This document shows, piece by piece, positions 40,321-59,067 of a stretch of DNA of 64,000 bases. The translations under genes were made by a program, and so were the position numbers. The notes beneath the pieces were generated by a model that made no database searches, was not told the DNA's origin, and saw nothing but the letters and a program-made list of their open reading frames with translations. The stretch spans positions 1 through 64,000 of the forward strand of contig NZ_CALPDD010000007.1 of assembly GCF_943193205.1 (NCBI RefSeq), given 5' to 3'. Positions within the stretch are counted from its first letter, which is position 1. Each line of letters opens with the position of its first letter. The DNA is from Alistipes muris (GTDB lineage Bacteria; Bacteroidota; Bacteroidia; Bacteroidales; Rikenellaceae).

Positions 40321-40646
40321 AACAAACGCTGAAAATCAGCAAATTGCAAAACAAACACCCAGTTTTACACCCAAGAATGTAAAGTCGGGTGTTTTTGTTT
40401 TATTTAAGATAATACAACCACTACATAATAAAAGAGTAGCGATATTAAAAGAATCCGATGAGAAAAGACTAATATTTATCTATCCATTCAGTTTGATTTT
40501 TCAGGACTTTACATCGTCCTGAAAGTATTTGTTATTGTATTCCAACGTCAGGAGTGGATTATAATACAAGTTTTTTGTGTGGATAGAATTTCGTTTTGCT
40601 TAATGTACGAAAGTACTTATCTATAAACGCATGAAATATTAGCACA
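40321..40646. other. Noncoding left end of the mobile element
   Basis: About 325 AT-rich bases between attL and mef. A GTAC-AAA-GTAC-type small palindrome (GTACGAAAGTAC, about 40606-40617) lies 30 nt before the mef start and could be an operator. A GGGTGTTTTTG stretch near 40388 resembles part of a terminator. Confidence 0.5.
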
Positions 40647-41852: not shown

Positions 41853-41876
41853 TATTATTTATTAAAGAATTATTAT

Positions 41877-42389: not shown

Positions 42390-42399
42390 GAACAAGAAA

Positions 42400-42763: not shown

Positions 42764-42834
42764 TTTAACAAGTAAAATTCATTATATAACTCGGACTGGG
42801 TATTTCAATTTCCCAGTCCGTATTCTGATAGTAC

Positions 42835-43188
42835 TTATTCAATTGGAAGATTGTGTTGCTTCAAGAATGAAAGTTTATCCCAATACCCTCTTTGAAAGAC
42901 GATTTTGTTATCTTTTACATGAAAAAATCCGCATCCACGAAGTCCAAGAGAGTCTTTCCATTCCATGATAGCCCATTCGCCATCTTCAAAAATATTTTCC
43001 ACCATACAAACCATTTTAGCAGTGGCAAATTCATTCACAAACATTTTGTAGATTGATTCTTTACCTATTATTGGTTCGTTTGCGACTTGATGATTTACTG
43101 CATTAGTAGCATACAGCTCTGCTATATGATAAGCATCTGCTTTGTTAAAGCAATCTATCCATTTTTCCAAAACTTCTTTAGGCTTCAT
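42835..43188 (-). CDS. SnoaL/NTF2-like protein
   Basis: A 117-residue protein of the cone-shaped NTF2-like/SnoaL fold: helix KEVLEKWIDCFNKAD, then YATNAVNHQVANEPIIG and a C-terminal sheet (GCGFFHVKDNKIVFQRGYWDKL). Such proteins are small enzymes or binding domains with poorly predictable function. It lies between the resistance block and the mobilization genes, on the minus strand. Not essential to the element by context. Confidence 0.8.
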   Translation of the reverse strand: MKPKEVLEKWIDCFNKADAYHIAELYATNAVNHQVANEPIIGKESIYKMFVNEFATAKMVCMVENIFEDGEWAIMEWKDSLGLRGCGFFHVKDNKIVFQRGYWDKLSFLKQHNLPIE

Positions 43189-43276
43189 TTTTTATAAATT
43201 CTTAGGATTTTGATTCTGTAATAAAAACAATCTGTTTGGATGCATAGATACTTGATTTTATTAATAATAGGCTATT

Positions 43277-44680
43277 CTATATTCTAAATCCTCTGGATTT
43301 TTGCTCTCTCTGCACCGAGTTACGTAGATTCTGCTGTAACTTTTCCCATTGTTCCTTAAACCATTGTACTATGGGTTGTCGGTTTATGGTCAGCATAAGC
43401 TTACCACTATCCATCGGATGTTTCTCAACCCTAAAAATATCATTCTTGATGTCAAATTTCCACCTGTGTTCTTCGGAATAAATTTTGCCACTACATTGTA
43501 TGGATTCTTTCTTTGTCAAGAGGTTTTCTATCATGTCTTTGGTAAACCCGATAACAGCGCATAATTTTTCCATTCTCAACATCTCTTTGAACATGGGAAA
43601 CCATTTGTGGGCTTTTTCAAGCAAGGTGCTCAATCGTGATATTTCCTTGTCTTTGGCTTCAAGTTCTTGATTATGTATTCTTTGAAGATTACGAATTTGT
43701 CTGCTATGCTGTTCCTGTATTTGTTGTATCTGAATTTTTAATTCATCAGTAGCTTTGTCCCGTTTGGTAATTTCCTGATGTAGCTGCTCGATGTGATGTT
43801 CCAGTTCTTTCAGCTTACCGCTTCCGAAAAGAGAACCTACACCGCTTGCTATGGCGGTAGCAGCATTGGTGGCTGTTTTCTTTAGTTTGTCCGTGCGTAT
43901 CTCTGCTTTTACCTGTTTGAGTTCCTGTTCGGCAAGGCTTACTTGTTGTTCCTTGTGTCGCTTGGTTTCCTCTATACGTTGCAGTTCGGCTTTCTGCTTC
44001 TCAATGATGAAATCATTTCGTTCCAGATGCTCTTTACCTGTGACAGCTTTTGCCTGTCCACGTTCCATCAGGAGAATATCGGAAGCAAGGGTCTGCATGG
44101 TTGCCATATCCTCGTCATTGAGCTTTCGGCTCTTTCCAGTTTCATGGTTCATCCAGTCGAATACGACATGAGCATGATAATTTGGTTTGAACCATCTGTT
44201 ACCGACTTGGAAGCTCTCCTTGTCTTCTGCTTCCGGCTGACCGTTCAGCCAATGCCCTTCGTCTTTATGCAGGAAAATCTGTAGCGGAGTGATGCCCCAG
44301 CGTCTTTGGCACTCTTCACCGAATTTGCGTACATCAGCCAGTGTGGTGTCCGGTCTGATAAGCAATACTCCTTCACGGATGGGTGAGCATCCCGCCACCT
44401 TGATAATCTTTCCATTCTTTCCCTTGCGTTCCCTTTCCTTTTCCTGCATGGCACGTCCGGTCTTTTCCTTGACCATTTGCTTGATATTGTCATAATGAGT
44501 TCGCAGTTCGGGAGTGCCGAAGTCGGGATTTATCCACTGTTCGTTATCGGTGGAAAGTTCGGGAACGACATAGATTCTGGACTCCCCGATATTACGCATA
44601 TACTCGGCAGTCCTTCGGTTGTGTGCCTCGCTCGATGCGATGTTGCAAGGCTTGATATGTATGCTTGATTTTGTTGCCAT
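43277..44680 (-). CDS. MobV/Pre-type relaxase (MobN2-like)
   Basis: A 467-residue mobilization protein. The N-terminal 200 residues carry the relaxase features: IYVVPELSTDNEQW, PLQIFLHKDEGHW and PNYHAHVVFDWMNHETGKS, the histidine metal-binding motif of the MobV/Mob_Pre family. A long coiled coil (about 215-350) and a C-terminal domain follow. It nicks at oriT and pilots the strand during conjugal mobilization. The oriT-like hairpins lie directly upstream of its start. Confidence 0.9.
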   Translation of the reverse strand: MATKSSIHIKPCNIASSEAHNRRTAEYMRNIGESRIYVVPELSTDNEQWINPDFGTPELRTHYDNIKQMVKEKTGRAMQEKERERKGKNGKIIKVAGCSPIREGVLLIRPDTTLADVRKFGEECQRRWGITPLQIFLHKDEGHWLNGQPEAEDKESFQVGNRWFKPNYHAHVVFDWMNHETGKSRKLNDEDMATMQTLASDILLMERGQAKAVTGKEHLERNDFIIEKQKAELQRIEETKRHKEQQVSLAEQELKQVKAEIRTDKLKKTATNAATAIASGVGSLFGSGKLKELEHHIEQLHQEITKRDKATDELKIQIQQIQEQHSRQIRNLQRIHNQELEAKDKEISRLSTLLEKAHKWFPMFKEMLRMEKLCAVIGFTKDMIENLLTKKESIQCSGKIYSEEHRWKFDIKNDIFRVEKHPMDSGKLMLTINRQPIVQWFKEQWEKLQQNLRNSVQREQKSRGFRI

Positions 44681-44689
44681 AGCTTCTTT

Positions 44690-44891
44690 CCTTTGTTTAC
44701 AATTGATTTACTTTGCTCGCTTTCGCAGAGGGGTTCTTAGGGGTAACCCATAAGCGGAGATTGCAAAGAGAGGGTCACTCTTTGCTCGGGGTTCTCAGGG
44801 GTGAAACGCCCTGAGTGGGTCATTAGGGCAAAGCCCTAATCCCCTCGGGAGAGCCCACAACTACGAAAGCGAAGCGTGTAGTTATAGTGGG
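44690..44891. other. Putative oriT region with stacked stem-loops
   Basis: Four or five hairpins in 200 bases between the relaxase and primase genes: GCAAAGAG (44763-44770/44778-44785), CTCAGGG (44794-44800/44809-44815), ATTAGGGC (44822-44829/44833-44840) and TTATAG (44882-44887/44892-44897). NBU oriT sequences lie next to mob, so this is the best candidate. The nick site cannot be identified by eye. Confidence 0.65.
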
Positions 44892-45848
44892 CTATAACTG
44901 GAAGCCGTTCTTCTTTTCCGGTGATTGGCTGCGCACCCCTTTGGCGGACTGGAGCTGCCTTTTTCTTTCAATCTGTTTCTGTAAGTATTCGTTCAAGTCC
45001 TTGCATCCTCTGTAAATCTGCGAAGCGTCCCGGAGGTACCGCTCTCTGCCGTATTCCATGCGGATTTGCCGGAGTGCTTCCAGTCCTGCATGGTCGTTGT
45101 CGAAAAAGCAGTGGATGCGTTCGTAATTGCCCAACGGATAGAGAGCCTTGTTTACATTCGATACGGAGTTCAATACAATGTAGTCCTGCCCGTCCAATTC
45201 CGGATAATTTGGGCAGCTCTCTTGTCTCAATGTCAAAAAGGAGAGGTAGTCCATAAATCCCTCGAACACATAACAGGTATTCCTCGCTTTTCCCGACTGC
45301 CTGATGTGGGAGATTTCCTTTGGGGCGATGCAGCCCTTGAAATAGCGGTTGCGGATTTCATATCCACACGAACCATTGGGAAAGGCGATGGCAAAGTACC
45401 GCTTGCAGTTGTGAGTGAAACGTGCTTCACTACATTCTCTTTTCGCCAGTTTTATGTTAATTCCTCTACCTTGTAAGTAGGCAAGCAGGGCAGTAGATGA
45501 CAGCGGAACAATCTCCAACTGTTGGAAGCTCGGCTCGGAAGAGTTTTGCTTTCCAAAAGAGAAAGATACCGGGCGCACGTGCGGTGTCTGCTCTGCTATC
45601 CGTTTCAAGATGTAAGGTACATGGTCGGTAGCGTACAGGTGTGCAGCCAGTTCTATGATACCACCACCTTTACCCAAACCGAAGTCATACCATTGTTCAC
45701 GTTCGGTATTTACCTTGAACGAGGCTTCGGCTTCTTCCCTTAACGGTGATTTATACCACAGATTGACACCTTGTTGCTTGACGGGAGAATATCCTAAACT
45801 ATGCAGATAATCCGCTATTCTGATTTGCTTGGCTGTCTGTATATCCAT
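44892..45848 (-). CDS. Toprim primase (PrmN-like)
   Basis: A 318-residue primase-like protein. The N-terminal domain (about 1-85) resembles the DnaG zinc-ribbon fold without the cysteines (WYKSPLREEAEASFKVN, WYDFGLGKGGGIIELA). The toprim domain has the acidic motifs CYVFEGFMDYL (about 195-205) and IHCFFDNDHAGLEA (about 245-258). It would prime the complementary strand after transfer of the single-stranded element or during replication. It lies 212 nt after the AAA ATPase gene; the gap contains a tandem palindrome. Confidence 0.88.
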   Translation of the reverse strand: MDIQTAKQIRIADYLHSLGYSPVKQQGVNLWYKSPLREEAEASFKVNTEREQWYDFGLGKGGGIIELAAHLYATDHVPYILKRIAEQTPHVRPVSFSFGKQNSSEPSFQQLEIVPLSSTALLAYLQGRGINIKLAKRECSEARFTHNCKRYFAIAFPNGSCGYEIRNRYFKGCIAPKEISHIRQSGKARNTCYVFEGFMDYLSFLTLRQESCPNYPELDGQDYIVLNSVSNVNKALYPLGNYERIHCFFDNDHAGLEALRQIRMEYGRERYLRDASQIYRGCKDLNEYLQKQIERKRQLQSAKGVRSQSPEKKNGFQL

Positions 45849-45926
45849 AAAATGATTGTTTTAGTAGTTGGTGAATTGGTTTATTTTTCTTTTTGCCCGT
45901 ACCTTTTTAGGAAGTACGGTCTATAA

Positions 45927-46046
45927 TCACTTCACTAAATTCTCGTATATATAGGATACGGTAATAAAGTGAAGTGATTTAGTCCCATTCCCCAAGCACT
46001 TCACTATATTCCTAATATATACACCCCGAGAATAAAGTGAAGTGAT
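45927..46046. repeat. Tandemly duplicated palindrome before the primase gene
   Basis: CACTTCACT occurs at 45928-45936 and 45997-46005, each followed by its reverse complement AGTGAAGTG at 45968-45976 and 46036-46044. Thus a roughly 69-bp palindromic unit is present twice in tandem. It sits between the ATPase and primase genes and may be an iteron-like origin, operator or attenuator. Confidence 0.85.
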
Positions 46047-46060
46047 TGCAGGGAAATGGG

Positions 46061-47143
46061 CTAATAGTGGAAGTCAGGCATGAATGTGTATTTTCTGCCT
46101 GTCTCCTGCACTATCATCCGTTTGTTGCGGAGCATGGTGATGAGCGATACCGCCTTTTTATGGTTCAGCTTTACACCCACTGACATATAGGTCTTGATTA
46201 AGGCATCTTCCAGTTCCTTGTAGCCGTATTCCTCTTTCAGCCCGAAAACGGCTTCCAATGCGATACGGTGCTGCTGCTCGGTGATATGCCTGTAAGGGTC
46301 GAACTTCTCTTCTTCGGGTCTTCCCGGCTTCTTTGTTTCAGGTTTGTATCCCTCAATGAGTTCGGGAAGGGCTTTGTCGTTGATACGGAATGCGAAAGGC
46401 TCAAAGTCCATTGCCCGGATGTGAATGGCTGAAACATGGCTGATGTCACCGTTGCCCTTGTCCTTTTCTACCTGCAATACGGTTTCCGCCTTGTTGTTCA
46501 ACTCCGTACCAATGTGCCCTCTTGCGTTCTCATCCCCTTTGTTCTGATGCAGTATCGTATGGATATGTATCTGCCTGTCGTCCGTCCACTGCATCAGCTT
46601 GGATATGATGCGTGTTGATTCACTGGGGCTGTTGATGTCATACACCATATCCCGTATGCCGTCTATAATTACAAGACCGATTTCGGGTGTATTGTAAATA
46701 GCCTGTTCCACAATCCTGATACGCTGCTCAGGCGTGTATTTTCTTAAGGCAAGAAATTCAAGATTCTCATTGTCCCTATCATCTGGCAAACCAGCCATTC
46801 GCAAAATGCGCGTCATGACTTTCAGACAATGGTAAGGGCTTTGCTCTGTATCAACATAAAGCACTTTCCGCTTATCTTCAGGCAGTTCAGCCACATACCG
46901 CAGCACTGTGCCGTTCTTCAATGCAGCGGCTACGATAGCCGATACATTGAACGTTTTTTTACTTTTGGCTTTGCCGATGGATGCGCTGAAATTACCCAAT
47001 GTCCCAATGACAGAATCATGTACTTTAAGGATTTCAGGTGCTTTCTCATAACTTTTCGACAGGCTCAAACGTGAGGCTTGCCAAAGGATTATGGCTTCTT
47101 CAGCCGATATTTCCTTAGTCTCTTTCATATAGTCCATAGCCAT
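46061..47143 (-). CDS. RepA-like AAA ATPase of the mobile element
   Basis: A 360-residue RecA-fold ATPase. A degenerate Walker A lies in GNFSASIGKAKSKKTF (about residues 50-65); KVLYVDTEQSPY and IGLVIIDGIRDMVYD (Walker B) follow, then HTILHQNKG. This matches RepA/DnaB-like ATPases of Bacteroides mobile elements (Orf3 of NBUs). A C-terminal winged-helix-like domain follows a PGRPEEEKFD linker. It probably unwinds or remodels DNA with the primase. Confidence 0.82.
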   Translation of the reverse strand: MAMDYMKETKEISAEEAIILWQASRLSLSKSYEKAPEILKVHDSVIGTLGNFSASIGKAKSKKTFNVSAIVAAALKNGTVLRYVAELPEDKRKVLYVDTEQSPYHCLKVMTRILRMAGLPDDRDNENLEFLALRKYTPEQRIRIVEQAIYNTPEIGLVIIDGIRDMVYDINSPSESTRIISKLMQWTDDRQIHIHTILHQNKGDENARGHIGTELNNKAETVLQVEKDKGNGDISHVSAIHIRAMDFEPFAFRINDKALPELIEGYKPETKKPGRPEEEKFDPYRHITEQQHRIALEAVFGLKEEYGYKELEDALIKTYMSVGVKLNHKKAVSLITMLRNKRMIVQETGRKYTFMPDFHY

Positions 47144-47151
47144 GCCTCCCG

Positions 47152-47460
47152 TTATTTCCGTCCTCCTGTTTTCTTTCCAGCCAGTTCAAGGGCAAGCTCA
47201 ACATCCACGATAATCTTACGTCCTATCTGAGTGATTGCCTTGTCAATCTTTCCGCTTTTCTTGATACGGTTGGCGGTGGGTAGGCTGCACCCGAACAGTT
47301 TGGCTATGCCCAGTATTCCGTACACATATTTTCTTTCTGTGTCTGTAATGGGCTGTGGCTGCGTTTCCGTTTGACGGGAAGCGTGCTTACTTAGGAATAT
47401 GAACTCTTCACCTGTCATCTGCCAGACGGGTTTTGATAATAATTCTTGAAGATTTTTCAT
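47152..47460 (-). CDS. DUF3853 / excisionase-like DNA-binding protein
   Basis: A 102-residue protein. The C-terminal part (about 45-95) is a MerR/Xis-like helix-turn-helix: YGILGIAKLFGCSLPTANRIKKSGKIDKAITQIGRKIIVDVELAL. The N-terminal PVWQMTGEEFIFLS segment matches DUF3853 proteins. It would control excision or expression of the replication genes. It precedes the ATPase by 8 nt and follows a promoter element at 47530-47537. Confidence 0.85.
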   Translation of the reverse strand: MKNLQELLSKPVWQMTGEEFIFLSKHASRQTETQPQPITDTERKYVYGILGIAKLFGCSLPTANRIKKSGKIDKAITQIGRKIIVDVELALELAGKKTGGRK

Positions 47461-47529
47461 CGTTCAATCTATTTAGTCGTTTAACAATCAGCCCTGCGCA
47501 CTGGCTGTTATCTCTGTTCTCGAACGATG

Positions 47530-47537
47530 CAAAATTA
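47530..47537 (-). promoter_or_regulatory. Promoter -7 element for DUF3853-ATPase-primase
   Basis: TAATTTTG on the minus strand, 70 nt before the DUF3853 start. Confidence 0.55.
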
Positions 47538-47684
47538 GGTAGGGTTGTAAGTGGTAAGGATGTGGTTGATATAAATGGAATATCTTGTTATTTATCTGAA
47601 TATCAGATAATAAAAATACCACTCAAAAATTTAATTTGAGTGGTAAAAGTGGTTGTTTCGTAAAATGTCAGGGCATATCACAGA

Positions 47685-48728
47685 TTATCGGAATATACCA
47701 TCCATTTCTTTGGCAAATTTCCGGTTGCTGTCACTGGGGAAATCGGAAACAGGCTCTTTGTACTTTGACTTGTAGTAGCTTTCCTCAATATCCAATATTT
47801 TCAGGATATTCCTCTTCCAATTCTCCCTGTCCTGTTTGGGCAGTTTTTCGCTCATCAGGAATATCAGATAGCAGGTACGTATTTTTTCTCTCGGTCTGAT
47901 TTGGGGTTTGGTGTCGCTTGGTAGCAGGTTCATGCAGGTATAGAAATCATGTTCGGAAATATTCTCGAACTGTTCTCCCACGCAGGTTACATGAATGAGC
48001 GAAAGCAGTTCCATATTGAAATACTCAGTCTGTTTCGTTCCCAGCACTTCTTCCTGTATGTTGGGGGCATTTGGTTCTTGTTCGGCTGGCTCTTCCGGCT
48101 CGTTTGTTTCATCAAATACATATTTCGCCAATGTCTCTTTGAGGTGGCAGCCCAGCCGATAGATTTCATTGAAACGGCTTTTTGCATATTGCAGGGCTTT
48201 CTCTCTGGTCTGTTTTTGCAGATCGTAGAGTTCGGTCAGCTTGTTTTTTTTCTCCTCGTATTCATCTTTGCACCGTTCATATTCCATTTCCGCACGCTTT
48301 TCATCCTCTGCAGTGTGTTCCCGATAACCTATGGAATCGTATCGGTGGTATGCTTCGTTTAGCGGAGCATGGAGCTTGGTCGTCTTGTATTGCTGTTCTT
48401 CTATGGCTTCTTTATAGATTTCTGAAACTCGGAAGCAGATATTGTAAACGGTCTGTTCATCCGGCATACATCCTTTCTTGTAATAACTTATGTTTTCGCA
48501 TACTTCCTTTTTCAGGCTATTCAGAATCAGTGTGTATTGCTCCTGTGGAAGATGAAACACCAGTTCAAGAATGGCTGTTTCAAGAACCGTTACATCATTG
48601 TAGTCCAGATAGAACTTGGTAATGAATTTCTGCTTTTCAAAAGAGAAACCTTTATTATCAAACCAGTCTTTATATATTCTGTTCAATTCTCCGTATCGGG
48701 GAATCAGCGTTGTAATTACATCTTTCAT
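47685..48728 (-). CDS. Uncharacterised coiled-coil protein of the mobile element
   Basis: A 347-residue soluble protein without a family I recognise. The middle (about 115-200) is a charged coiled coil (EYERCKDEYEEKKNKLTELYD), followed by an acidic linker EPEEPAEQEPNAP and a helical C-terminal domain. It starts 8 nt after the DUF1016 nuclease gene, so the two are cotranscribed; a joint function is likely. The position corresponds to one of the accessory orfs described between int and orf3 in NBU2. Confidence 0.75.
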   Translation of the reverse strand: MKDVITTLIPRYGELNRIYKDWFDNKGFSFEKQKFITKFYLDYNDVTVLETAILELVFHLPQEQYTLILNSLKKEVCENISYYKKGCMPDEQTVYNICFRVSEIYKEAIEEQQYKTTKLHAPLNEAYHRYDSIGYREHTAEDEKRAEMEYERCKDEYEEKKNKLTELYDLQKQTREKALQYAKSRFNEIYRLGCHLKETLAKYVFDETNEPEEPAEQEPNAPNIQEEVLGTKQTEYFNMELLSLIHVTCVGEQFENISEHDFYTCMNLLPSDTKPQIRPREKIRTCYLIFLMSEKLPKQDRENWKRNILKILDIEESYYKSKYKEPVSDFPSDSNRKFAKEMDGIFR

Positions 48729-48736
48729 GGACGCAA

Positions 48737-50032
48737 CTATTTTTGAGTGTTATTGTCTTTGTCAAGGAAAGAGGCCAGTTCTTCTTCCACTTCTTCCACG
48801 CTGGGCAACGCTGATTTCAGTTTCTCGGGAATCGCTTTGCTCAATTGGTAATCGCTGATGCCGATGGGCTGGTCATAGCCTGTCAATGCGTATTGTGCCA
48901 CAACTTCGTCTTTTCCCTTGCATAGCAACAACCCGATAGTCTTGTTGTCATTCTCTCCCCTCAGTTTATCATCCACCACATTGATGTAGAAGTTCAGTTG
49001 TCCTGCATACTCCGGTTTGAATGGGGTAGCCTTTAATTCTACCACGATATATGCGTGCAACGGAATGGAATATAGAATCAGGTCGGCAAAGAAATCGCTG
49101 TTTCCGACTTGGAAGTGCTTCTGCCGGGCAACGAAGGCAAAACCGTTGCCCATTTCCAACAGGTAGCGGGTAACGTGTTTCACCAGCTGTTCTTCAATAT
49201 CCCTTTCGTCTGCTTTTTCTTTGGCTCCTGCCAAATCAAAGATGTACGGGTCTTTGAGTAGGTAATTGGCAAGGTCGCTTTGTGGAGCCGGAAGTGTGGT
49301 CGTGAAATTGTTTACCTTGTTGTTGCTGATTTGTCGGCTATACAAATCACTGTCAATTTGCATTTTCAATACATTGCTGCTCCATCCCATTTCCACAGAC
49401 TGCTTCATGTACCAGTAGCTTAGACCTAAAGGTAGCGAACTGTCAAGTATAGTCATTTGGCTTGTCCAGTTTATTTTGGCTATAGGAGAGGTCAAGAAAA
49501 CTTCTTCTATTTCCCTGATTCCCATCCTGTAAATGGCAGACACGGTTTTTCCCACATCTTCAAATTGCGCAGGAACTTCCTGCGTAATTGCTAATGATTG
49601 ACAATCAATCGATTGCATTTGCGCAGTAAGTTCCTGCGTAAATTGCTTGTCATTCAGTTTTAATACTTCATTGGTCACACTCTGTATGGTTGGGACAGAC
49701 AGGCTTGCATCTGTTTCTATGAAACTTTGCAACGCTCTTAAAGGATATGCTTTTGCAAACTGGCACATATAGGTAAGGTTACGTTCCGAATAGCCTTTCT
49801 TTTCAGGGTAATGCAGTCGGATAGCCTTTGCCAACTGCTTGATGATTTTGCTTCCCCATCCGTGCAGCTGCTGGTGATAAAGGATGTAATTGCCTATCTT
49901 CCAGTAATGGAACAGCATTTGTGCATTGGCTGCAACAATCAGCCTTACTTGTGCCTGTTCTATTTCCGAACCGACCGCTTGTATGAATGCATCAAAATTC
50001 GTTTTCTCTATGTTGGATTCCTTGTTGCTCAT
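48737..50032 (-). CDS. DUF1016 (YhcG-like) PD-(D/E)XK nuclease
   Basis: A 431-residue protein of the YhcG family. The N-terminal DUF1016 domain includes NAQMLFHYWKIGNYI, GWGSKIIKQLAKAI and SERNLTYMCQFAKAYP. The C-terminal PD-(D/E)XK nuclease core is GNSDFFADLILYSIPLHAYIVVELKA, with Asp and ExK catalytic residues intact. Members have been linked to Holliday-junction cleavage and to defence. In this element it may affect recombination or protect the element. Promoter element at 50052-50059. Confidence 0.88.
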   Translation of the reverse strand: MSNKESNIEKTNFDAFIQAVGSEIEQAQVRLIVAANAQMLFHYWKIGNYILYHQQLHGWGSKIIKQLAKAIRLHYPEKKGYSERNLTYMCQFAKAYPLRALQSFIETDASLSVPTIQSVTNEVLKLNDKQFTQELTAQMQSIDCQSLAITQEVPAQFEDVGKTVSAIYRMGIREIEEVFLTSPIAKINWTSQMTILDSSLPLGLSYWYMKQSVEMGWSSNVLKMQIDSDLYSRQISNNKVNNFTTTLPAPQSDLANYLLKDPYIFDLAGAKEKADERDIEEQLVKHVTRYLLEMGNGFAFVARQKHFQVGNSDFFADLILYSIPLHAYIVVELKATPFKPEYAGQLNFYINVVDDKLRGENDNKTIGLLLCKGKDEVVAQYALTGYDQPIGISDYQLSKAIPEKLKSALPSVEEVEEELASFLDKDNNTQK

Positions 50033-50051
50033 ATTGTGATGATAATTTCTA

Positions 50052-50059
50052 CAAATATA
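50052..50059 (-). promoter_or_regulatory. Promoter -7 element for the DUF1016 gene
   Basis: TATATTTG on the minus strand, 20 nt before the start codon. Confidence 0.6.
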
Positions 50060-50095
50060 GTCATTGGTAACTATCTATGAAACTGTTTGATACTT

Positions 50096-51379
50096 TTATA
50101 GTTGATTAAACTTGTTCATGGCATTTGCCTTAATATCATCCGCTATGTCAATGTAGGGTTTCATAGCTTTGTAGTCGCTGTGTCCCGTCCATTTCATGAC
50201 CACCTGTGCCGGGATTCCGAGAGCCAGCGCATTGCAGATGAATGTCCTTCTTCCTGCATGGGTACTGAGCAAAGCGTATTTGGGTGTGACTTCATCAATA
50301 CGTTCATTTCCCTTGTAGTAGGTTTCCCGTACAGGCTCGTTGATTTCTGCCAGTTCGCCCAGCTCTTTCAGGTAATCGTTCATCTTCTGGTTGCTGATGA
50401 CGGGCAGAGCCATGTAATTCTCGAAATGGATGTCCTTGTATTTGTCCAGTATGGCTTTGCTGTATTTGTTCAGTTCAATCGTCAGGCTGTCGGCAGTCTT
50501 GACTGTGGTTATTTCGATGTGGTCGGACTTCACATCGCTTCTTTTCAGATTGCGAACATCCGAATACCGCAAACTCGTCAAGCAGCAGAACAGGAAAACA
50601 TCACGCACACGTTCCAGGTATTGCTTATCCTTGGGTATCTGGTAGTCTTTCAGCTTGTTCAGTTCATCCCAAGTCAGGAAGATTACTTTTTTCGAGGTGG
50701 TTTTCAGTTTCGGTTTGAACGTATCGTATGCAATGTTCTGATGATGTCCTTTCTTGAAGCTCCAGCGCAGGAACCATTTTAGGAATCCCATTTGCTTGCC
50801 GATGGTGCTGTTTCTCATATCCTTGGTGTCACGCAGGAAGTTGACGTATTCGTTCAATCCAAACTCGTTGAAATAGTTGAACGTTGCATCCTCCTTGAAC
50901 TCTTTGAGGTGGTTCCTCACTGCTGCAAATTTTTCATAGGTGGATGCCGTCCAGTTATTCTGGTTACCGCACTCTTTTACAAACTCATCGAACACCTCCC
51001 AAAAGCTGACAGGGGCTTCTTCCGGCTGTTCTTCGCTGGTGTCTTTCATTCTCATGTTGAAAGCTTCCTTCAACTGTTGGGTCGTTGGCATGACCTCCTG
51101 CACCTCAAATTCCTTGAAAATATTCTGGATTTCGGCATAGTATTTCAGCAAGTCCGTATTGATTTCGGCTGCACTTTGCTTTAGCTTGTTGGTACATCCG
51201 TTCTTTACCCGCTGCTTATCTGCATCCCATTTGGCTACGTCAATCCGGTAGCCCGTTGTAAACTCGATGCGTTGGCTGGCAAAGATGACACGCATACGGA
51301 TGGGTACGTTCTCTACGATTGGCACACCGTTCTTTTTCCGGCTCTCCAATGCAAAAATGATGTTGCGCTTGATATTCAT
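50096..51379 (-). CDS. Tyrosine integrase of the NBU2-like element
   Basis: A 427-residue site-specific recombinase. An arm-binding domain (residues about 1-90, VPIRMRVIFASQRIEFTTGYRID) and SAM-like core-binding domain (FWEVFDEFVKECG...) precede the catalytic domain: box I TSLRYSDV with Arg, a Lys in the beta hairpin, box II STHAGRRTF and GHSDY, and the nucleophile Tyr in AMKPYIDI. The start is at 51379 because a promoter element lies at 51407-51414. It sits 160 bases from attR, as expected. Confidence 0.93.
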   Translation of the reverse strand: MNIKRNIIFALESRKKNGVPIVENVPIRMRVIFASQRIEFTTGYRIDVAKWDADKQRVKNGCTNKLKQSAAEINTDLLKYYAEIQNIFKEFEVQEVMPTTQQLKEAFNMRMKDTSEEQPEEAPVSFWEVFDEFVKECGNQNNWTASTYEKFAAVRNHLKEFKEDATFNYFNEFGLNEYVNFLRDTKDMRNSTIGKQMGFLKWFLRWSFKKGHHQNIAYDTFKPKLKTTSKKVIFLTWDELNKLKDYQIPKDKQYLERVRDVFLFCCLTSLRYSDVRNLKRSDVKSDHIEITTVKTADSLTIELNKYSKAILDKYKDIHFENYMALPVISNQKMNDYLKELGELAEINEPVRETYYKGNERIDEVTPKYALLSTHAGRRTFICNALALGIPAQVVMKWTGHSDYKAMKPYIDIADDIKANAMNKFNQL

Positions 51380-51406
51380 AATTGGGTGCGTTTGAAATTC
51401 TACACC

Positions 51407-51414
51407 CAAATATA
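51407..51414 (-). promoter_or_regulatory. Promoter -7 element for the element integrase
   Basis: TATATTTG on the minus strand, 28 nt before the start at 51379. It rules out a longer start at 51421. Confidence 0.55.
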
Positions 51415-51538
51415 CACCCAATTATTGAGATAGCAAAAGACATTTAGAAACATTTACTTTTACTCTATATTGTAATTTACACTTGATTATCAGTCGTTTG
51501 CAGTTTTATGATATTCTGTGAAAGTATAAGTTCGAGAG

Positions 51539-51551
51539 CCTCTCTCTCCGC
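51539..51551 (+). repeat. attR: 13-bp direct repeat
   Basis: CCTCTCTCTCCGC, identical to attL. Flanking bases resemble the tRNA T arm on the left only partly, so the chromosome resumes to the right of it. Confidence 0.9.
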
Positions 51552-51575
51552 CAAAGTACAATGAAAAGAAAAGCG

Positions 51576-51615
51576 ATTTCCTGTAAACGGTTGGTTTACA
51601 GGAAATTTTATTTTT
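51576..51615 (+). terminator. Displaced terminator of tRNA-Ser
   Basis: A perfect 13-bp stem (ATTTCCTGTAAAC / GTTTACAGGAAAT, 51576-51588 and 51594-51606) with a GGTTG loop, followed by a T-rich tract. It lies 25 nt past attR, i.e. where the terminator of the tRNA gene would be if the mobile element were removed. Confidence 0.75.
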
Positions 51616-51631
51616 AGGCCAATAGAACGAA

Positions 51632-51719
51632 AGTGCATTTCGAAGCATATTCGCGGTGTCTTATTCGGTGTACCTGACAGGTACCGAAAAAAGTACACCG
51701 AATAAGCATCTAATGCACT
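51632..51719. repeat. Nested palindrome upstream of the second integrase
   Basis: Three concentric inverted repeats: outer AGTGCAT/ATGCACT (51632-51638, 51713-51719), middle 14-bp perfect arms CTTATTCGGTGTAC (51660-51673 with 51693-51706), and an inner GTACC/GGTAC (51670-51674 with 51680-51684). It could be a recombination site for the adjacent integrase. Confidence 0.8.
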
Positions 51720-51739
51720 CTATTGCATCGTATTACATC

Positions 51740-51770
51740 TTGACATCCGACACTTGGGAATTTAAATTTG
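51740..51770 (+). promoter_or_regulatory. Promoter of the second integrase
   Basis: TTG at 51740-51742, 20-bp spacer, TAAATTTG at 51763-51770: both promoter halves. The start codon is 20 nt further on, supporting ATG 51791 rather than the longer frame. Confidence 0.65.
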
Positions 51771-51790
51771 CAACCCTAAAACAAGTGTCT

Positions 51791-53008
51791 ATGGAAAGAA
51801 CCTCTTTCAGTTTGCTGTTTTACATCCGCAGAACAAAACTCAACAAGGCGGGCGAAGCTCCGATCTTCATGCGTATTACGGTTAACGGCCAGCGGGCCGA
51901 TGCCTCGGCAAGACGATTCATCGAACCTCGATTGTGGAACACCGCTAAAGGCAAGGCGGTCGAAAACGGCCGCGGATGCAAAGAACTGAATTTCTACCTC
52001 GATGCCGTTTCCGCAAATATTTTACGTATTCAACGGGATATGGAACTGGAGGGAGCGGAATTATCAGCACATACGGTTCTCGACCGTTATCTGGGCAAGG
52101 AGCGTTCGGAGCGTCATACATTATTGAATGTATTTCGCGAACATAATGAAAAATGCCGGAAATTGGCCGGAATCGACCTTGCAGTCGCGACTGTCGAGCG
52201 TTACGATACTTGCCTAAGGATAACCGAAGAGTTCATCCGCAATACTTATAAAAAGAAAGACCTTTATCTGGATGAACTTCCGGATCAATTCGTCGAAGAT
52301 TTTGAATTTTATCTGAAAACCGTCCGCAAGTGTTGCCACAATACGACCACCAAGTATCTCAAAAATTTCAAAAAAATCACTCGCCTTTCGCTTTCAAGGA
52401 AATGGATGAAAAACGATCCTTTCGCCAATGTTTGTTTTCACTTGGAGAATGTCGAACGGGACTTTCTTGAAAAGCATGAGTTGAAAAAACTTCTGGATAA
52501 AACGATCGACATTCCCCGCTTGGCGCAGATTAGGGACATCTTCGCATTCTGCTGTCTGACGGGGTTGGCATTTTCGGATGTAAAACAGCTGCGAGCAGAG
52601 CATATTGCGACAGATATTAACGGGATGCAATGGATTCGCAAAACGCGTCAAAAAACCGGAAATATGTGCAATATTCCTCTGCTGGATGCAGCACGGGAAA
52701 TATTGGCTCGCTATCATAATAATCCCTATTGTCAAGCACACGATGTGCTGTTGCCCGTTTGCAGCAATCAGAAGATGAATGTTTATTTGAAAGAACTGGC
52801 CGATATCTGCGGAATCAAAAAAAGTCTTTCGACGCATGTGGCCCGGCACACGTTCGCCACGCTGACCCTTGCCAGCGGTGCGACTATCGAAACTGTTGCT
52901 AAAATGCTCGGGCACTCCGATACGAAGATGACCCGCCATTATGCCCGCATTCTCGATTCATCCATTATGCGCGATATGCAGACCGTCGCAAAGAATATGG
53001 CATTATAG
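51791..53008 (+). CDS. Tyrosine integrase/invertase (Bacteroidetes type)
   Basis: A 405-residue recombinase: N-terminal arm-binding domain (SFSLLFYIRRTKLNKAGEAPIFMRI), core-binding domain (FREHNEKCRKLAG...), catalytic domain with box II HVARHTFATL, GHSDTKMT and nucleophile Tyr in HYARI. At box I it reads TGLAFSDV, so the usual catalytic Arg is replaced by Ala; a substituted box I Arg is known in the IntDOT group. GC is intermediate. The downstream small HTH genes are typical partners. It may move the R-M island or invert DNA controlling the fimbrial operon. Confidence 0.9.
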   Translation: MERTSFSLLFYIRRTKLNKAGEAPIFMRITVNGQRADASARRFIEPRLWNTAKGKAVENGRGCKELNFYLDAVSANILRIQRDMELEGAELSAHTVLDRYLGKERSERHTLLNVFREHNEKCRKLAGIDLAVATVERYDTCLRITEEFIRNTYKKKDLYLDELPDQFVEDFEFYLKTVRKCCHNTTTKYLKNFKKITRLSLSRKWMKNDPFANVCFHLENVERDFLEKHELKKLLDKTIDIPRLAQIRDIFAFCCLTGLAFSDVKQLRAEHIATDINGMQWIRKTRQKTGNMCNIPLLDAAREILARYHNNPYCQAHDVLLPVCSNQKMNVYLKELADICGIKKSLSTHVARHTFATLTLASGATIETVAKMLGHSDTKMTRHYARILDSSIMRDMQTVAKNMAL

Positions 53009-53123: not shown

Positions 53124-53432
53124 ATGGAATGTAAAATGATCGAAGCGGGAGCTTACGACGAAATGTGCTCCCTGCTCCATCGCGTCTGCGAGCGTGTGGA
53201 GTATCTCGGTTCGCTGTGCCAGCCTCACAAGCCCGACAAGTGACTGACTCAAGAAGAAGTCTGCAAGGCGCTGCACATTACCAAACGGGGTTTGCAATAC
53301 TTTCGTCAGCAGGGCATCGTACCTTATACGGCGATCGGCAACAAAATCTTCATCGAGGAGGCGGACGTCCAACGTCTGCTGGCGGCCAACATGATTACCC
53401 CAAAAAGTAATGGAAGATTTCATCACGCGTAA
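53124..53432 (+). pseudogene. Excisionase-like HTH gene broken by a stop codon
   Basis: ATG at 53124 opens a frame that stops at TGA 53241-53243 after 39 codons (ending PHKPDK), then continues in the same frame to 53432 as LTQEEVCKALHITKRGLQYFRQQGIVPYTAIGNKI, a clear HTH of the excisionase type. Homologous proteins usually have Trp at the site of the stop (xKWLxxxEVC), so a TGG-to-TGA change is the simplest explanation. The 3' end overlaps the next HTH gene by 23 bases. Confidence 0.8.
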
Positions 53433-53703
53433 TTCTGCCGAGTACGTTGAGTTGCGCAAGAAGGCTCTTCAAGCCTTGAAGTCGGTCAACCGTCTGATCG
53501 ACGAGCACCGCCCGTCGATCTTCAACGAGGTGTATCTGACCGGCGAGGAGGTCCGGTGTATGTTCGGCATCAGTCGGCGCTCCCTGCAAACCTATCGGGA
53601 CGAACGGATCATTCCCTACACGACGATCGGCGGAAAGTTTCTTTATCCGCAGTCCGGGATATTCGGCGTCCTTGAACGCAACTACATGAAAAATCTGGGT
53701 TAA
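53410..53703 (+). CDS. Excisionase-type HTH protein
   Basis: A 97-residue intact paralogue of the broken gene before it: helical N-terminus with KKALQALKSVNRLIDEHRPS, then the MerR/Xis-like HTH YLTGEEVRCMFGISRRSLQTYRDERIIPYTTIGGKFLYPQSGI. It probably regulates or directs the adjacent integrase. The start overlaps the end of the previous frame. Same strand as the integrase, 400 nt downstream. Confidence 0.88.
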   Translation: MEDFITRNSAEYVELRKKALQALKSVNRLIDEHRPSIFNEVYLTGEEVRCMFGISRRSLQTYRDERIIPYTTIGGKFLYPQSGIFGVLERNYMKNLG

Positions 53704-54202: not shown

Positions 54203-55387
54203 TTAAACAATATTTTGTATTCTTTTAACAGACTCTGTAAATTGTTTTAATGAGAGTATTCGTCCTCTGAAGTCTTGATCAAAAGATTTTTTGTATGGTT
54301 CCGGAACGACCAGACAGACATTTTCTCTATACATTTCCGTCAACTGATTTTTTGAAATTCCTTGTTGAAGTGTGAACAGATGCTTTCTGGGAATACGATC
54401 TGCCTCGTTCAGAATTTGCCGCCATCGGTCTTTACATGTAGTCTTGGCACCGAGAAATATCAGTTCTTCAGCCGGAAATTCAAAATTATGATAGGATTCA
54501 CCATCCGGGAATATAAAATCTGGCTTCTTATGTTCCTCTGTAATCACCTGCGTTTCAAAACGCAGGTGATTTGCATGGAATATGCTTGATAAGTGATGCT
54601 CCAATGATTTGCCTGCCCGGCTCTTTCTCCGGTTCAGAATTTGATTGGAGTAGGCAATCAAAGTTTCCACGTTCCCGAATCCCCTGCTGATTTCGGGAGA
54701 ATATAGTTTGGTTTCAAAAGATTTGAACAAATCATATTCCGTATTGATCCAAGCCAATATTGATGTGTCAGGATTATTTTGCAGAAATTCTTCAGATATA
54801 TTGTGAGCCTGCATATGGTATTTACGGGCATATGCAGCCATTAGATTTGTTTCAGGGAAATGATCGTAACGAGACAAAATTTCCTGAAACAACTGATGCA
54901 ATACATCTTCCGGGGCAGGATGGGTTTGCATAGATATAAGGGCATTGGTTTCTGTCGGACCAATACCAATAGCCTCAAGGAATGAATCAATGTCATCATC
55001 CGCAGACAGCACATATGCTTCATAATAATCCTTACTAATCTGACACAGGATAAACAAATCGCCGACGTTATCTTCAGAAAGAAATGGAAACCCTCGTCCA
55101 AAACGAGTGAGGCGATATTCGTTTCTGGTACCTTTACCGTAGTCTATGAAGCGACTTTCTGTTTCGAACGTGTTCTGCCATTTTATCATGATTGTCCGAT
55201 CCTTGTTTTCTCCTTTCAGACCAGGATGATCAAACATGATTGACCATGCATTTTTAGGCATGTAATAGCCTGCCTGATGAGCCCCGGTTGACCCAGCATC
55301 ATTGGCAGATGTAAACTTGCAGAAAGCTTTTGTGGCCTTATTGACCGTGGCAACAGCACGTCCGACCAAATTATTTGCACTCATCAT
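54203..55387 (-). CDS. EcoRII-like type II restriction endonuclease
   Basis: A 394-residue endonuclease close in length to EcoRII (about 400). The C-terminal catalytic domain shows KKPDFIFPDG, a FLGAKTTCKDRWRQILNEADRI motif and HLFTLQQGIS, the active-site region of the EcoRII-C family. The N-terminal half corresponds to the EcoRII effector domain. It would cut a CCWGG-type site unless methylated; the exact site is inferred. It overlaps the 3' end of the methyltransferase gene by 17 bases, both minus strand. Confidence 0.88.
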   Translation of the reverse strand: MMSANNLVGRAVATVNKATKAFCKFTSANDAGSTGAHQAGYYMPKNAWSIMFDHPGLKGENKDRTIMIKWQNTFETESRFIDYGKGTRNEYRLTRFGRGFPFLSEDNVGDLFILCQISKDYYEAYVLSADDDIDSFLEAIGIGPTETNALISMQTHPAPEDVLHQLFQEILSRYDHFPETNLMAAYARKYHMQAHNISEEFLQNNPDTSILAWINTEYDLFKSFETKLYSPEISRGFGNVETLIAYSNQILNRRKSRAGKSLEHHLSSIFHANHLRFETQVITEEHKKPDFIFPDGESYHNFEFPAEELIFLGAKTTCKDRWRQILNEADRIPRKHLFTLQQGISKNQLTEMYRENVCLVVPEPYKKSFDQDFRGRILSLKQFTESVKRIQNIV

Positions 55388-56621
55388 TCAACATGGATTT
55401 TACAAGGTTTCCGGCAACGTCCGTGATCAAGGGGACTATCACGGAATTTCCACATTGATGGTAAGCCTGAACTTCGGAAACAGCATCAATTATGTATCGA
55501 TCACTATATCCCATCAAACGGGCACATTCTCGGGGTGAGAGCCTTCGGGGATTTTTTCCATCGCATTGAGGAATCAGGATTTCCGAACCATCTTTATAAT
55601 ATCTGGCACTTAATGTCCGTGATATACCATTCAGGTCCGTGAGTCCATATCCGAATCCATTCCCATTGGCCTGATGTTTCTTCGCGTAATTCTGAAGATA
55701 CAGCCATAATTTATCCGTAAGGGTATATTTTGCATCAATATTCGGGTCCAGAATATTCTGGATCTTCAGATGCGGATCCTCCTTTACGGGAAAAGAGAAT
55801 GTTTCCTTTTCCTGATACAAATCCTTTCTGAATCCGACAATCATTATTCGCTCCCGATGTTGGGGTACATAATATTTCCCATCCATTATTTGATAATGAA
55901 TGTTATAACCCAATTCTTGGAGTGTATTTGATATAACATGAAAAGTCCGACCTTTATCATGAGATTGCAGATTCTTTACATTTTCGAGATAAAATGCTTT
56001 AGGGCGCTTTCTTCGGATAATCTCTGCAACATCAAAAAACAATGTGCCTTGTGTTTTGTCCAAAAAGCCATGGGCACGTCCCAGACTGTTTTTCTTGGAT
56101 ATTCCCGCAATGGAGAATGGCTGACAAGGAAATCCCGCGCATAATATATCAAAATTGTCAGGTATAAAAGCCTTTATCCGCTCCTCAGTTATATCTCCGA
56201 ACGGGACCTCGCCAAAATTAGCAAAATAGGTTTTTTGTGCATATGTATTCCATTCCGAAGAAAATACACATCGTCCTCCATGTGCCTGCATGGCCAACCG
56301 AAATCCGCCCATTCCGGCAAACAGGTCTATGAACGTAAATTTGGACCGTTCGGGAGATGGAAACGGAACATCAACGGCATCCTGGAACAATCCCTGCTCT
56401 TTTATAGACTTAAGCGTTATATCTTTTTTATCAATTGCAGGATTCAATGTACATAATATTGTCTGAAGATATTTACGACATTCTTTTCCATACGGAGAAA
56501 CCGAAGCTCTGCCGGTATTATGCATCCAATGAGTGATGACCGCCAGCATTTCATCTACATGTGGATGTGTTTTATCTGTTTTGATTTTCAGATTTTTATA
56601 TAAAATGTCAGATATTTTCAT
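55371..56621 (-). CDS. Dcm-like DNA cytosine-5 methyltransferase
   Basis: A 416-residue C5-MTase. After an N-terminal extension of about 95 residues come motif I FIDLFAGMGGFRLA, motif IV GFPCQPFSIAG with catalytic Cys166, motif VI ENVKNL, motif VIII QHRERIMIVGF and motif X GNSVIVPLI. Layout and extension resemble Dcm/EcoRII methylases. It protects the host from the overlapping endonuclease. Promoter at 56652-56659. GC about 40 percent, clearly foreign. Confidence 0.93.
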   Translation of the reverse strand: MKISDILYKNLKIKTDKTHPHVDEMLAVITHWMHNTGRASVSPYGKECRKYLQTILCTLNPAIDKKDITLKSIKEQGLFQDAVDVPFPSPERSKFTFIDLFAGMGGFRLAMQAHGGRCVFSSEWNTYAQKTYFANFGEVPFGDITEERIKAFIPDNFDILCAGFPCQPFSIAGISKKNSLGRAHGFLDKTQGTLFFDVAEIIRRKRPKAFYLENVKNLQSHDKGRTFHVISNTLQELGYNIHYQIMDGKYYVPQHRERIMIVGFRKDLYQEKETFSFPVKEDPHLKIQNILDPNIDAKYTLTDKLWLYLQNYAKKHQANGNGFGYGLTDLNGISRTLSARYYKDGSEILIPQCDGKNPRRLSPRECARLMGYSDRYIIDAVSEVQAYHQCGNSVIVPLITDVAGNLVKSMLNDECK

Positions 56622-56651
56622 CTTCGTTAATGAATTTCATTTTGTAGAATG

Positions 56652-56659
56652 CAAAGATA
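56652..56659 (-). promoter_or_regulatory. Promoter -7 element for the methyltransferase
   Basis: TATCTTTG on the minus strand, 31 nt before the start codon and 23 nt outside the vsr stop. Confidence 0.6.
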
Positions 56660-56681
56660 CGAAAATAGCAGAAAGAACCGG

Positions 56682-57104
56682 TCATATATTCTCTCGGATT
56701 TTTACGGTAAGTGCTGCAAGTGTTGCGCCTCTTTGTTTTGGTTTCAACTGACACTCCCAGATTGTTATAATCTTCCAGCCTGCGGCTCGTAATGCTTCGT
56801 TTGCTCTGTTATCTCTTTCAATATTTTTATTGATTTTATCAATCCACCAGTCTTTTCTGGTTTCGGGTATCACAAAATATTTACATCCTTCATGACCATG
56901 CCAGAAACAACCATTGATAAATACAATAGTTTTATATTTTGACAATACAATATCGGGGGATCCCGGTAAATTATGAACATTTATTCTGTATCTGAATCCT
57001 TGAGAAAACAGATATTTTCGCACCCATAATTCAGGTTGGGTGTTTTTGTTTTTTATTCGACTCATATTATAACTACGAGTTGCACTATCATGCTTATCCG
57101 CCAT
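56682..57104 (-). CDS. vsr: Very short patch repair endonuclease (Vsr)
   Basis: A 140-residue Vsr nuclease that nicks at T:G mismatches arising from deamination of 5-methylcytosine, so it accompanies Dcm-type methylation. Motifs: SRIKNKNTQPE, GSPDIVL (catalytic Asp), VFINGCFWHGHEGCKY (zinc/His) and WKIITIWECQLK. A promoter element at 57122-57129 lies downstream of an earlier ATG at 57143, so ATG 57104 is the likely start. Confidence 0.92.
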   Translation of the reverse strand: MADKHDSATRSYNMSRIKNKNTQPELWVRKYLFSQGFRYRINVHNLPGSPDIVLSKYKTIVFINGCFWHGHEGCKYFVIPETRKDWWIDKINKNIERDNRANEALRAAGWKIITIWECQLKPKQRGATLAALTVKIRENI

Positions 57105-57121
57105 GTGTAAAATATATAAAG

Positions 57122-57129
57122 CAAAGATA
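57122..57129 (-). promoter_or_regulatory. Promoter -7 element for vsr
   Basis: TATCTTTG on the minus strand, 18 nt before the chosen vsr start. Confidence 0.6.
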
Positions 57130-57192
57130 CTCATAAAAATCAATTTATATTGTCCATAAATTGCCAGATGTCGAAGTATATATGCATTTATA

Positions 57193-57409: not shown

Positions 57410-58501
57410 TCAGTCTTTTAACAGTTCGGTGATTTCGGGATCGAGGTTGCCGCGATACTCCATGCGCTCGTCCAGGCGGCAGGCTTCGAGGAAATGGCGA
57501 CGGCCCTCCTCCTTTCGTCCCAGCCGCGCGCAGACGATGGCCTGCAGATACTCCGTCACGGCGTCTTTGGGCAGCGCGGCGAGTAGTGTCAAAGCCCGTT
57601 CATTGTAATCAAGCGAAAGATGCGCTACAACCGTATTGCGGTCATTGTAGCTGTTCAGGGTGTACAATGCTTCCGCATACTTGCGTTTTTTCAACAGTTC
57701 CACGCCCCGCATGTATGCCGTGTCCTGTTGCAACAAAGTGTCCACGAACGAGAGCATCGAAGTAACAACGTAGTCCAGCGTGTCGGAGGGCGGCAGTCGG
57801 TAGCTGCTGTCGTCGATGCCGAAGACCTTGCCTTCGAGCGTCACGGTCATGCGCTTCGAGGACTCGTCGGTCGGGACTTCTTCCGAGTAGTAGTAGGTCA
57901 TCATGCCGCGGCGTTCGACGACCGAATCCAGCCGCGCATCCTCCGGGTAGGGGAACTTCACGAAGCGGTTGAACGCGGCCTCGCGTCCGAGGGTGTCGGG
58001 ACGGAAACGTTCGACATAGGTTTCGTACTGCCAGTAGTCGCGTTGCTGGAGCAATGAAAACCTCCCGCCCCGGATTACGAGGTCTTCGAGTTCCATGCGT
58101 CCATCGGGCTTATGCAGTATGGGTGTGATCACCACGCTGCGGCTGCCTCCCAAAAGTTGCTTCGGGAGCGAGACGATGAAGTCGAGCACCACGCGCCCGT
58201 TGCGTTCGGGTACGGAGCGCATCTTCGCCGCGACGGTCACTTGTTCGATTTCAAACGACATCACGCGCTCGCCGTCCGCAAGCGTATCGACCGGCGCGAG
58301 GTAGAAGGTGCTGCTGTCGCGTTGGAGCTTCACGACCTGCGGGCGGTAGTCGGACTGCCGCTCCTGCCGCTCGGTGCGCGAGAGCTGCGACAGCCTCGGT
58401 GCCACCTGACGCCGTTGGAGCGGCCCGGTGACCGAGCAGCCGAAGAACAGGCATAGTGCGCTGACGATAAGGCTCGCCAATAGAATCTGTTTCGTCTTCA
58501 T
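57410..58501 (-). CDS. Fimbrial-operon lipoprotein with TPR-like repeats
   Basis: A 363-residue lipoprotein (signal ending LFFGC). The N-terminal part includes FEIEQVTVAAKMRSVPERNGRVVLDFIVSLPKQLLGG, and the C-terminal third has helical repeats (GVELLKKRKYAEALYTLNSY, NERALTLLAALPKDAVTEYLQAIVCARLG) resembling tetratricopeptide repeats. Its place after the DUF3575 gene is the usual one in Bacteroidales fimbrial clusters. It may act in assembly or anchoring. Start at 58501 from the signal sequence. Confidence 0.8.
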   Translation of the reverse strand: MKTKQILLASLIVSALCLFFGCSVTGPLQRRQVAPRLSQLSRTERQERQSDYRPQVVKLQRDSSTFYLAPVDTLADGERVMSFEIEQVTVAAKMRSVPERNGRVVLDFIVSLPKQLLGGSRSVVITPILHKPDGRMELEDLVIRGGRFSLLQQRDYWQYETYVERFRPDTLGREAAFNRFVKFPYPEDARLDSVVERRGMMTYYYSEEVPTDESSKRMTVTLEGKVFGIDDSSYRLPPSDTLDYVVTSMLSFVDTLLQQDTAYMRGVELLKKRKYAEALYTLNSYNDRNTVVAHLSLDYNERALTLLAALPKDAVTEYLQAIVCARLGRKEEGRRHFLEACRLDERMEYRGNLDPEITELLKD

Positions 58502-58503
58502 GG

Positions 58504-59058
58504 CTAAAAGAGGTAAGAGAACGACACACCCAGTCTGGATGGGAAGAGCGTCCAGCGGCGATAGTGGTAAAGATATTCGTCGTCCCAGTCCCCGACGGTC
58601 GGGTCGCGGCGCGTGTCGCGCGTGCGAAACAGCCCGATGCCGGCCTCCATGGCGACATTCCACCGCGTGGTGAGCATCCACGAATAGCCGTAGCTCAAGC
58701 CGATGCCGAATGCCCGGCCATCGTAGCGGCGGGTGCGGTTGCCGAGGTCGTAGCCGACATACGAAAGGTGCGCACCGACGAAGTGGCCGACAAAGGATTC
58801 GTAGGCCCAGTAGCGGCCGCCGACCTGTACTGCATGGAAGCGGGTCGAAAGATTTTCGGTTCGTATCGGATTCCAGTAGCCCGATACTTCGACCGTCCAT
58901 TTGTCTGCAACGGATACTTCGGCCCCGAGGTCGAGGGTGCCGGTCAGGGCCGCCAGGGCGTTGGCCCGCACGGCGAAGATCTGTGCCGCGGCTTTGCGCG
59001 GGGCACTCCACAGTGCTGCAAATAGCAGCATGAACAGCATGATTGTTTGTCGTTTCAT
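58504..59058 (-). CDS. DUF3575 outer-membrane protein
   Basis: A 184-residue secreted beta-barrel-like protein of the DUF3575 family. Signal peptide through AAAQ, then VRANALAALTGTLDLGAEVSVADKWTVEVSGYWNP and further alternating strands to a terminal Phe (VSFSYLF), compatible with an 8-stranded barrel. Members are encoded in Bacteroidales fimbrial operons; role unknown. It lies 9 nt from the preceding and 2 nt from the following gene. Confidence 0.85.
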   Translation of the reverse strand: MKRQTIMLFMLLFAALWSAPRKAAAQIFAVRANALAALTGTLDLGAEVSVADKWTVEVSGYWNPIRTENLSTRFHAVQVGGRYWAYESFVGHFVGAHLSYVGYDLGNRTRRYDGRAFGIGLSYGYSWMLTTRWNVAMEAGIGLFRTRDTRRDPTVGDWDDEYLYHYRRWTLFPSRLGVSFSYLF

Positions 59059-59067
59059 GGTTTTCGT

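Follow-up and report, generated by a model that had tools for sequence, protein, structure and literature searches.

Introduction

As described in excerpts of the closest literature, integrases of the IntCTnDOT group are reported to bind subterminal arm sites, and the arginine of box I is absent in CTnDOT (excerpt of PMC8138268). Other elements use tRNA genes as targets: NBU1 integrates at the 3' end of tRNA-Leu and NBU2 at the 3' end of tRNA-Ser, and tandem accretion of elements is known (excerpt of PMC5704250). The GA2 T6SS ICEs of gut Bacteroidales are likewise tRNA-targeted, with several targets, an integrase at one end and one tandem insertion (excerpt of PMC8102008).

Here we analyze a window of 64,000 nucleotides on contig 7 (C7) of an Alistipes muris genome (1.95 Mb in 20 contigs), in which a long inverted repeat stands just ahead of a tyrosine integrase gene. 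The repeat sits within the left end of an ICE, element B, that is inserted behind tRNA-Ser(cga) in tandem with another element, A. On sequence grounds, it very probably represents a set of arm-type (accessory) sites for the integrase encoded at 51791-53008, clustered at the left end of a CTnDOT-type ICE within its attachment region. Because multi-target tRNA ICEs and tandem insertion have already been found in gut Bacteroidales, the element is of a known kind; the arrangement, too, is already known, and the window is a well-placed example of it. Judged by titles and the beginnings of abstracts, no paper was recognized that describes these sites in this genus.

Results

Elements A and B lie in tandem behind tRNA-Ser(cga)

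We placed the borders of both elements by their core repeats. The 13-bp tRNA 3' end, CCTCTCTCTCCGC, is present at all three junctions (Table 1), and with up to one mismatch it occurs at only four places in the whole genome. Element A accordingly spans 40321-51551 (11,231 bp), with an integrase that reads leftward from its right end, and element B spans 51552 to C7:118547 (66,996 bp, about 67 kb), with its integrase gene at one end, starting 240 bp from the core. When the tRNA flank was joined to the right flank and searched against 180 genomes, 114 matched, mostly over the tRNA and barely or not at all into the right flank; a single genome (G164) aligned 57 bp past the tRNA, as a weak match, and a clean empty site was not found among the 180.

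Element B encodes MobB, MobC, TraG, TraJ, TraK, TraM and TraN, all above the NCBIfam cut-offs, which identifies it as a CTnDOT-type conjugative element. It shares these genes with CTnDOT/ERL-type ICEs, along with an integrase that carries Arm-DNA-bind_5 (residues 10-94, E 3.9e-14), SAM-like and catalytic domains. Its use of tRNA 3' ends with a 13-bp core is presumably unlike the target of CTnDOT. As in the IntCTnDOT group, element B has subterminal repeats of the kind expected of arm sites, and as in CTnDOT its integrase lacks the box I arginine, with alanine in the place of the usual residue (GLAFSDV; excerpt of PMC8138268). Insertion at the 3' end of a tRNA gene is a property shared with NBU1 and NBU2 (excerpt of PMC5704250), although element B, unlike those mobilizable elements, is conjugative and has its own transfer genes. 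It also resembles the GA2 ICEs in being tRNA-targeted, in having the integrase gene at one end and in its tandem insertion (excerpt of PMC8102008), but differs from them in that the element in the window sits at tRNA-Ser.

The proteins recognized in element A are primase-like, AAA and DUF3853 proteins, and a 467-aa protein (43277-44680) had no match to anything. The word ACACCCA occurs 13 times in the window, with only two pairs at 11-13-bp spacing, one at each end of element A; because the word was picked by eye, these candidate arm sites serve as a descriptive control. Just inside the left end of element B is a terminator-like hairpin, and most aligned relatives have one at this position with a different stem sequence. 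The element thus seems to supply the tRNA gene with a terminator of its own.

Table 1. Features of the two elements, in window coordinates unless a contig position (C7) is given.
Feature	Position	Strand	Remarks
tRNA-Ser(cga), integration target	40233-40320	+	ARAGORN; last 13 bases (40308-40320) are the core CCTCTCTCTCCGC
ACACCCA pair, candidate arm sites, left end of A	40355-40373	+	starts 40355 and 40367, at 12-bp spacing
Tyrosine integrase of element A	50096-51379	-	Arm-DNA-bind_5, Phage_int_SAM_5, Phage_integrase
ACACCCA pair, candidate arm sites, right end of A	51402-51420	+	starts 51402 and 51414, at 12-bp spacing; beside integrase start
Core repeat CCTCTCTCTCCGC at A/B junction, left end of ICE B	51539-51551	+	
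Terminator-like perfect 13-bp hairpin, then T-rich tract	51576-51606	.	in relatives, kept directly after the tRNA-derived core
Outer 7-bp arms GTGCATT / AATGCAC	51633-51639 / 51712-51718	.	
Two direct copies of putative arm motif, outer pair of arm sites	51654-51673	+	CGGTG at 51654-51658 and 51666-51670
14-bp inverted repeat	51660-51706	.	arms 51660-51673 (also the second direct copy) and 51693-51706 (the inverted copy)
Inner palindrome GTACCTGACAGGTAC (GTACCTG-A-CAGGTAC)	51670-51684	.	without conservation in relatives
Integrase promoter	51740-51770	+	TTGACA 51740-51745 ... TAAATTTG 51763-51770
Tyrosine integrase of ICE B, 405 aa	51791-53008	+	ATG 51791, stop 53006-53008
First HTH gene	53124-53432	+	in-frame TGA at 53241-53243; relatives have intact copies
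Second HTH gene (HTH_17), open	53410-53703	+	excisionase-like by position
Core repeat CCTCTCTCTCCGC, right end of B	C7:118535-118547		

A perfect inverted repeat precedes the integrase promoter

The arms of the repeat, CTTATTCGGTGTAC and GTACACCGAATAAG, form a perfect 14-nt inverted repeat around a spacer of 19 nt. The window holds five perfect inverted repeats of at least 14 nt with loops of up to 40 nt; the other four have loops of 2-5 nt, and a long spacer is found only here. By comparison, 20 first-order Markov simulations of the window produced no perfect 14-nt inverted repeat. A direct CGGTG copy that had escaped the earlier note lies 12 bp upstream of the left-arm copy. That note had described three nested levels around one centre, and all three levels do exist, the 14-bp one being perfect. 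Their centres, however, lie at 51675.5, 51683 and 51677, a spread of 6-7 bp, and only the middle (14-bp) level is conserved among relatives, with the inner level missing from them; the inner palindrome is probably incidental. The TGCA word of the outer arms is found again inside several element ends.

The -33 box of the integrase promoter follows the repeat after 33 bp. The two boxes of this promoter fit the Bacteroides -33/-7 form, and several relatives have an additional copy of the motif between the -7 box and the integrase start codon. The description of this promoter as serving an integrase with two HTH partners holds for the integrase, the promoter and the open second HTH gene, but the first HTH gene is interrupted by a stop codon. 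This interruption may mean either that excision of element B is impaired or that the gene is dispensable.

The motif recurs at both element ends and across the genus

Exact copies of the 14-mer are confined to the repeat, with no further copy in the genome, and a DNA search of the genome with 51560-51790 did not find a second copy. With up to two mismatches, the 14-mer has six matches in the genome (two of them the repeat itself) versus 11 for its backwards control, so the number of matches is uninformative alone and the copy at the right end of element B is distinguished only by its position. This copy (C7:118460-118473, two mismatches) starts 75 bp and ends 61 bp before the core; it overlaps GTGGCCTATTCGGTGT at C7:118456-118471 and is without an inverted partner. 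The left-end cluster, for its part, lies about 100-155 bp inside the element from the tRNA-derived core. A lack of other copies, which had been put forward as grounds for dismissing the site, is therefore true of exact copies in this genome and fails with degenerate copies and in relatives.

We then looked beyond this genome. The 16-mer GTGKCCTATTCGGTGT with up to two mismatches is present in 11 of 11 genomes (our own and ten relatives), a threshold at which the backwards control also matched, and exact matches are the informative ones. The common form of the motif, GTGKCCTATTCGGTGTA, from which the left copy in the window differs by one mismatch, occurs exactly at 37 places in 17 genomes of the 180 searched from the same genus, versus none for the backwards control. 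All 37 places lie at the ends or remnants of tRNA-targeted elements: on the left, 22 ends and 1 remnant; on the right, 12 ends, 1 remnant and 1 place that is truncated by the start of its contig but still has the core. This sorting is not blind, as an initial set of rules (16 left, 8 right, 13 unsorted) was judged too strict and loosened after the sequences had been viewed; the inspected flanks agree with it for the rows they cover. The tRNA 3' end lies upstream in 20 of the 23 left-type places, and a tRNA-type core lies downstream in 13 of the 14 right-type places. Left and right ends are paired on one contig in three cases, at distances of 67 kb (the element in the window), 73 kb (G005) and 10 kb (G179). 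The orientation of the motif relative to the integrase is identical in all 16 left ends that have an integrase start within 200 bp.

Of the 14 right ends examined, 13 also have an outward-pointing, promoter-like -7 box (TAnnTTTG) that precedes the motif by 49-52 bp; in the element of the window, this box is at about C7 118405. Separately, several left- and right-type ends of a related element fall within about 57 kb of another genome (G012:C5 3176800-3234000; L091 and L092), a pattern suggestive of insertions or remnants stacked at a single tRNA-Asp.

The layout is shared while the words differ by integrase clade

Aligned regions upstream of integrase homologues have the order tRNA 3' end, about 25 bp, terminator-like hairpin, motif cluster, promoter and integrase. 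Within the cluster, a pair of direct copies spaced 12 bp apart is accompanied by a single inverted copy. The words change with the integrase clade, often within the same layout (CGGTGTAC, CGGTGTCCA, GGTGGAC, GGTGGAG, CGTTACTAA and TCGTTACT), and substitutions in one arm are mirrored in the partner arm in the alignment of relatives. A layout score was calculated for 36 of 37 loci, with L043 excluded as too short. At most 4 of 100 shuffles reached this score in 21 of the 36 upstream regions, and the remaining 15 were not distinct from shuffles; these low-scoring regions include the paralogue L008 as well as L026 and L029, whose inverted copies can be made out by eye, and in some of the 15 the repeat is plain by eye and the direct copy weak.

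When reverse-complemented, the inner half of the left end is similar to the right end outside the motif as well, sharing CCAAGTG and the TGCA word. Right ends of other clades are represented by a single case identified by reading: at L137, a right end that adjoins a left end of the GGTGGAG clade contains GGTGGAG once, at a distance of about 70-75 bp from the core of tRNA-Phe. Searches with doubled motifs for the GGTGGAG and CGTTACT clades returned left ends and no right ends. One of their matches, L135, was set aside as an apparent chance match.

Two further integrase loci deserve mention. A paralogue integrase with 40% identity (L060:2001-3556, G000:C6) starts just after tRNA-Gly(gcc), and no comparable repeat was found upstream of it. 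An integrase with 53% identity and the same upstream layout lies on a contig labelled as an Alphaproteobacteria MAG (L021), which may be a misbinned Bacteroidota contig.

Related elements use several tRNA genes

For all 17 GTGKCC-type left-end loci given to ARAGORN (these 17 are part of the 29 loci run, and left-type places number 23 in all), the program identified the target tRNA immediately upstream. Their targets span six anticodons and three amino acids: Ser (gct 5, gga 4, tga 3, cga 2), Ala(ggc) 2 and Asp(gtc) 1. At the 4 loci of the GGTGGAG clade, the target is tRNA-Phe with the core GTTCGATTCCTGGTGGYACCAC, which resembles the 22-bp target of the GA2 ICEs (excerpt of PMC8102008).

Discussion

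The locus presents defined ends, core repeats, a motif that recurs at both ends, a conserved position and layout with clade-specific words, and an integrase with an arm-binding domain. Clade-specific words that are repeated at both ends and held at fixed distances to the core and promoter have the look of arm-type sites, and we infer that the protein that binds them is the integrase itself. The left end would offer two direct sites 12 bp apart and one inverted site, about 100-155 bp inside the element, and the right end would offer one more, about 75 bp inside. The N-terminal arm-binding domain of the integrase would hold these arm sites while its central and catalytic domains hold the crossover core at the tRNA 3' end, such that the two ends could be bent and folded together into an integration or excision complex. 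As the cluster sits just ahead of the promoter of the integrase gene, we also propose autoregulation, in which occupied arm sites would probably repress this gene or tune its expression.

The suggestion in the earlier note that the palindrome is the integrase's own recombination site was thus near the mark, as the repeat falls within the attachment region of the integrase's own element and its motif is found at the other end. The repeat nevertheless fits arm-type sites and is not the crossover site, as exchange must occur at the tRNA-derived core, 109-155 bp away. The same note offered an invertible regulatory element as an alternative. Inverted repeats beside a tyrosine recombinase gene could prompt such a reading, but the spacer that the integrase would flip is only 19 bp long, the promoter lies outside the arms and the 16 left ends with a nearby integrase start all have one orientation, and we consider inversion extremely improbable. 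A palindrome arising by chance is equally hard to credit: all that speaks for it is that the levels nest imperfectly and that the inner one lacks conservation, against the absence of any such repeat from 20 simulated windows and a position that is conserved across species.

Other proteins could bind the sites in place of the integrase, with the HTH proteins as the main alternative and host factors also possible. If excisionase-like HTH proteins (recombination directionality factors) were the binders, the cluster would combine an operator with excision sites. HTH genes do immediately follow the integrase gene in the window and at L026, L027, L028 and L036, with a different HTH pair at L024, and the interval from the sites to the promoter contains another recurring word (TGCA; CCAAGTG). 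This adjacency is seen in only some relatives, for which the flanks examined were often short; at both L030 and L034, the motif is kept and the roughly 1.5 kb examined downstream of the integrase gave no HTH match. The motif also varies with the integrase clade, and a layout of paired direct and inverted copies suits a multi-protomer integrase, so that we regard HTH binders as unlikely. More improbable still is a transcription-factor operator or RNA hairpin that regulates only the integrase gene and has no role in recombination. The position of the repeat 33 bp ahead of the -33 box would suit an operator, as would the further copy that some relatives have between the -7 box and the start codon. 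Regulation alone, however, does not account for the recurrence of the motif, without its inverted partner, at the opposite end, which is 10-73 kb off in the three pairs found on one contig, and a hairpin is disfavored because the repeat, being upstream of the promoter, is outside the transcript that starts from it.

If the repeat is indeed an array of arm-type sites, a broader picture can be sketched, which we offer as a tentative possibility. One integrase family, its arm sites nearly unchanged, may move among different tRNA 3' ends, with the cluster acting as an operator that ties integrase expression to the joined ends. Each element would bring its own terminator by the core, and the outward promoter-like box would read across the joint after excision.

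In practical terms, the motif is a landmark by which both ends, and with them the borders, of a family of conjugative elements in gut Bacteroidota can be found. The window displays two elements with different arm words in tandem behind a single tRNA gene, and the layout of two direct copies and one inverted copy, filled with clade-specific words, supplies matched pairs of integrase and site with which to test how arm-binding domains choose their DNA.

Element B carries several further gene sets. A restriction-modification set with an EcoRII-like nuclease, a cytosine methylase and Vsr lies at 54203-57143, followed at 57410-63928 by cargo genes for Fimbrillin/FimD-like and DUF4906 surface proteins. 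Farther along the contig, at C7 71226-83441 (L057:7226-19441), a Peptidase-C39 ABC exporter, a radical SAM/SPASM protein and a VKOR-thioredoxin protein are encoded in what looks like a modified-peptide (RiPP) cluster.
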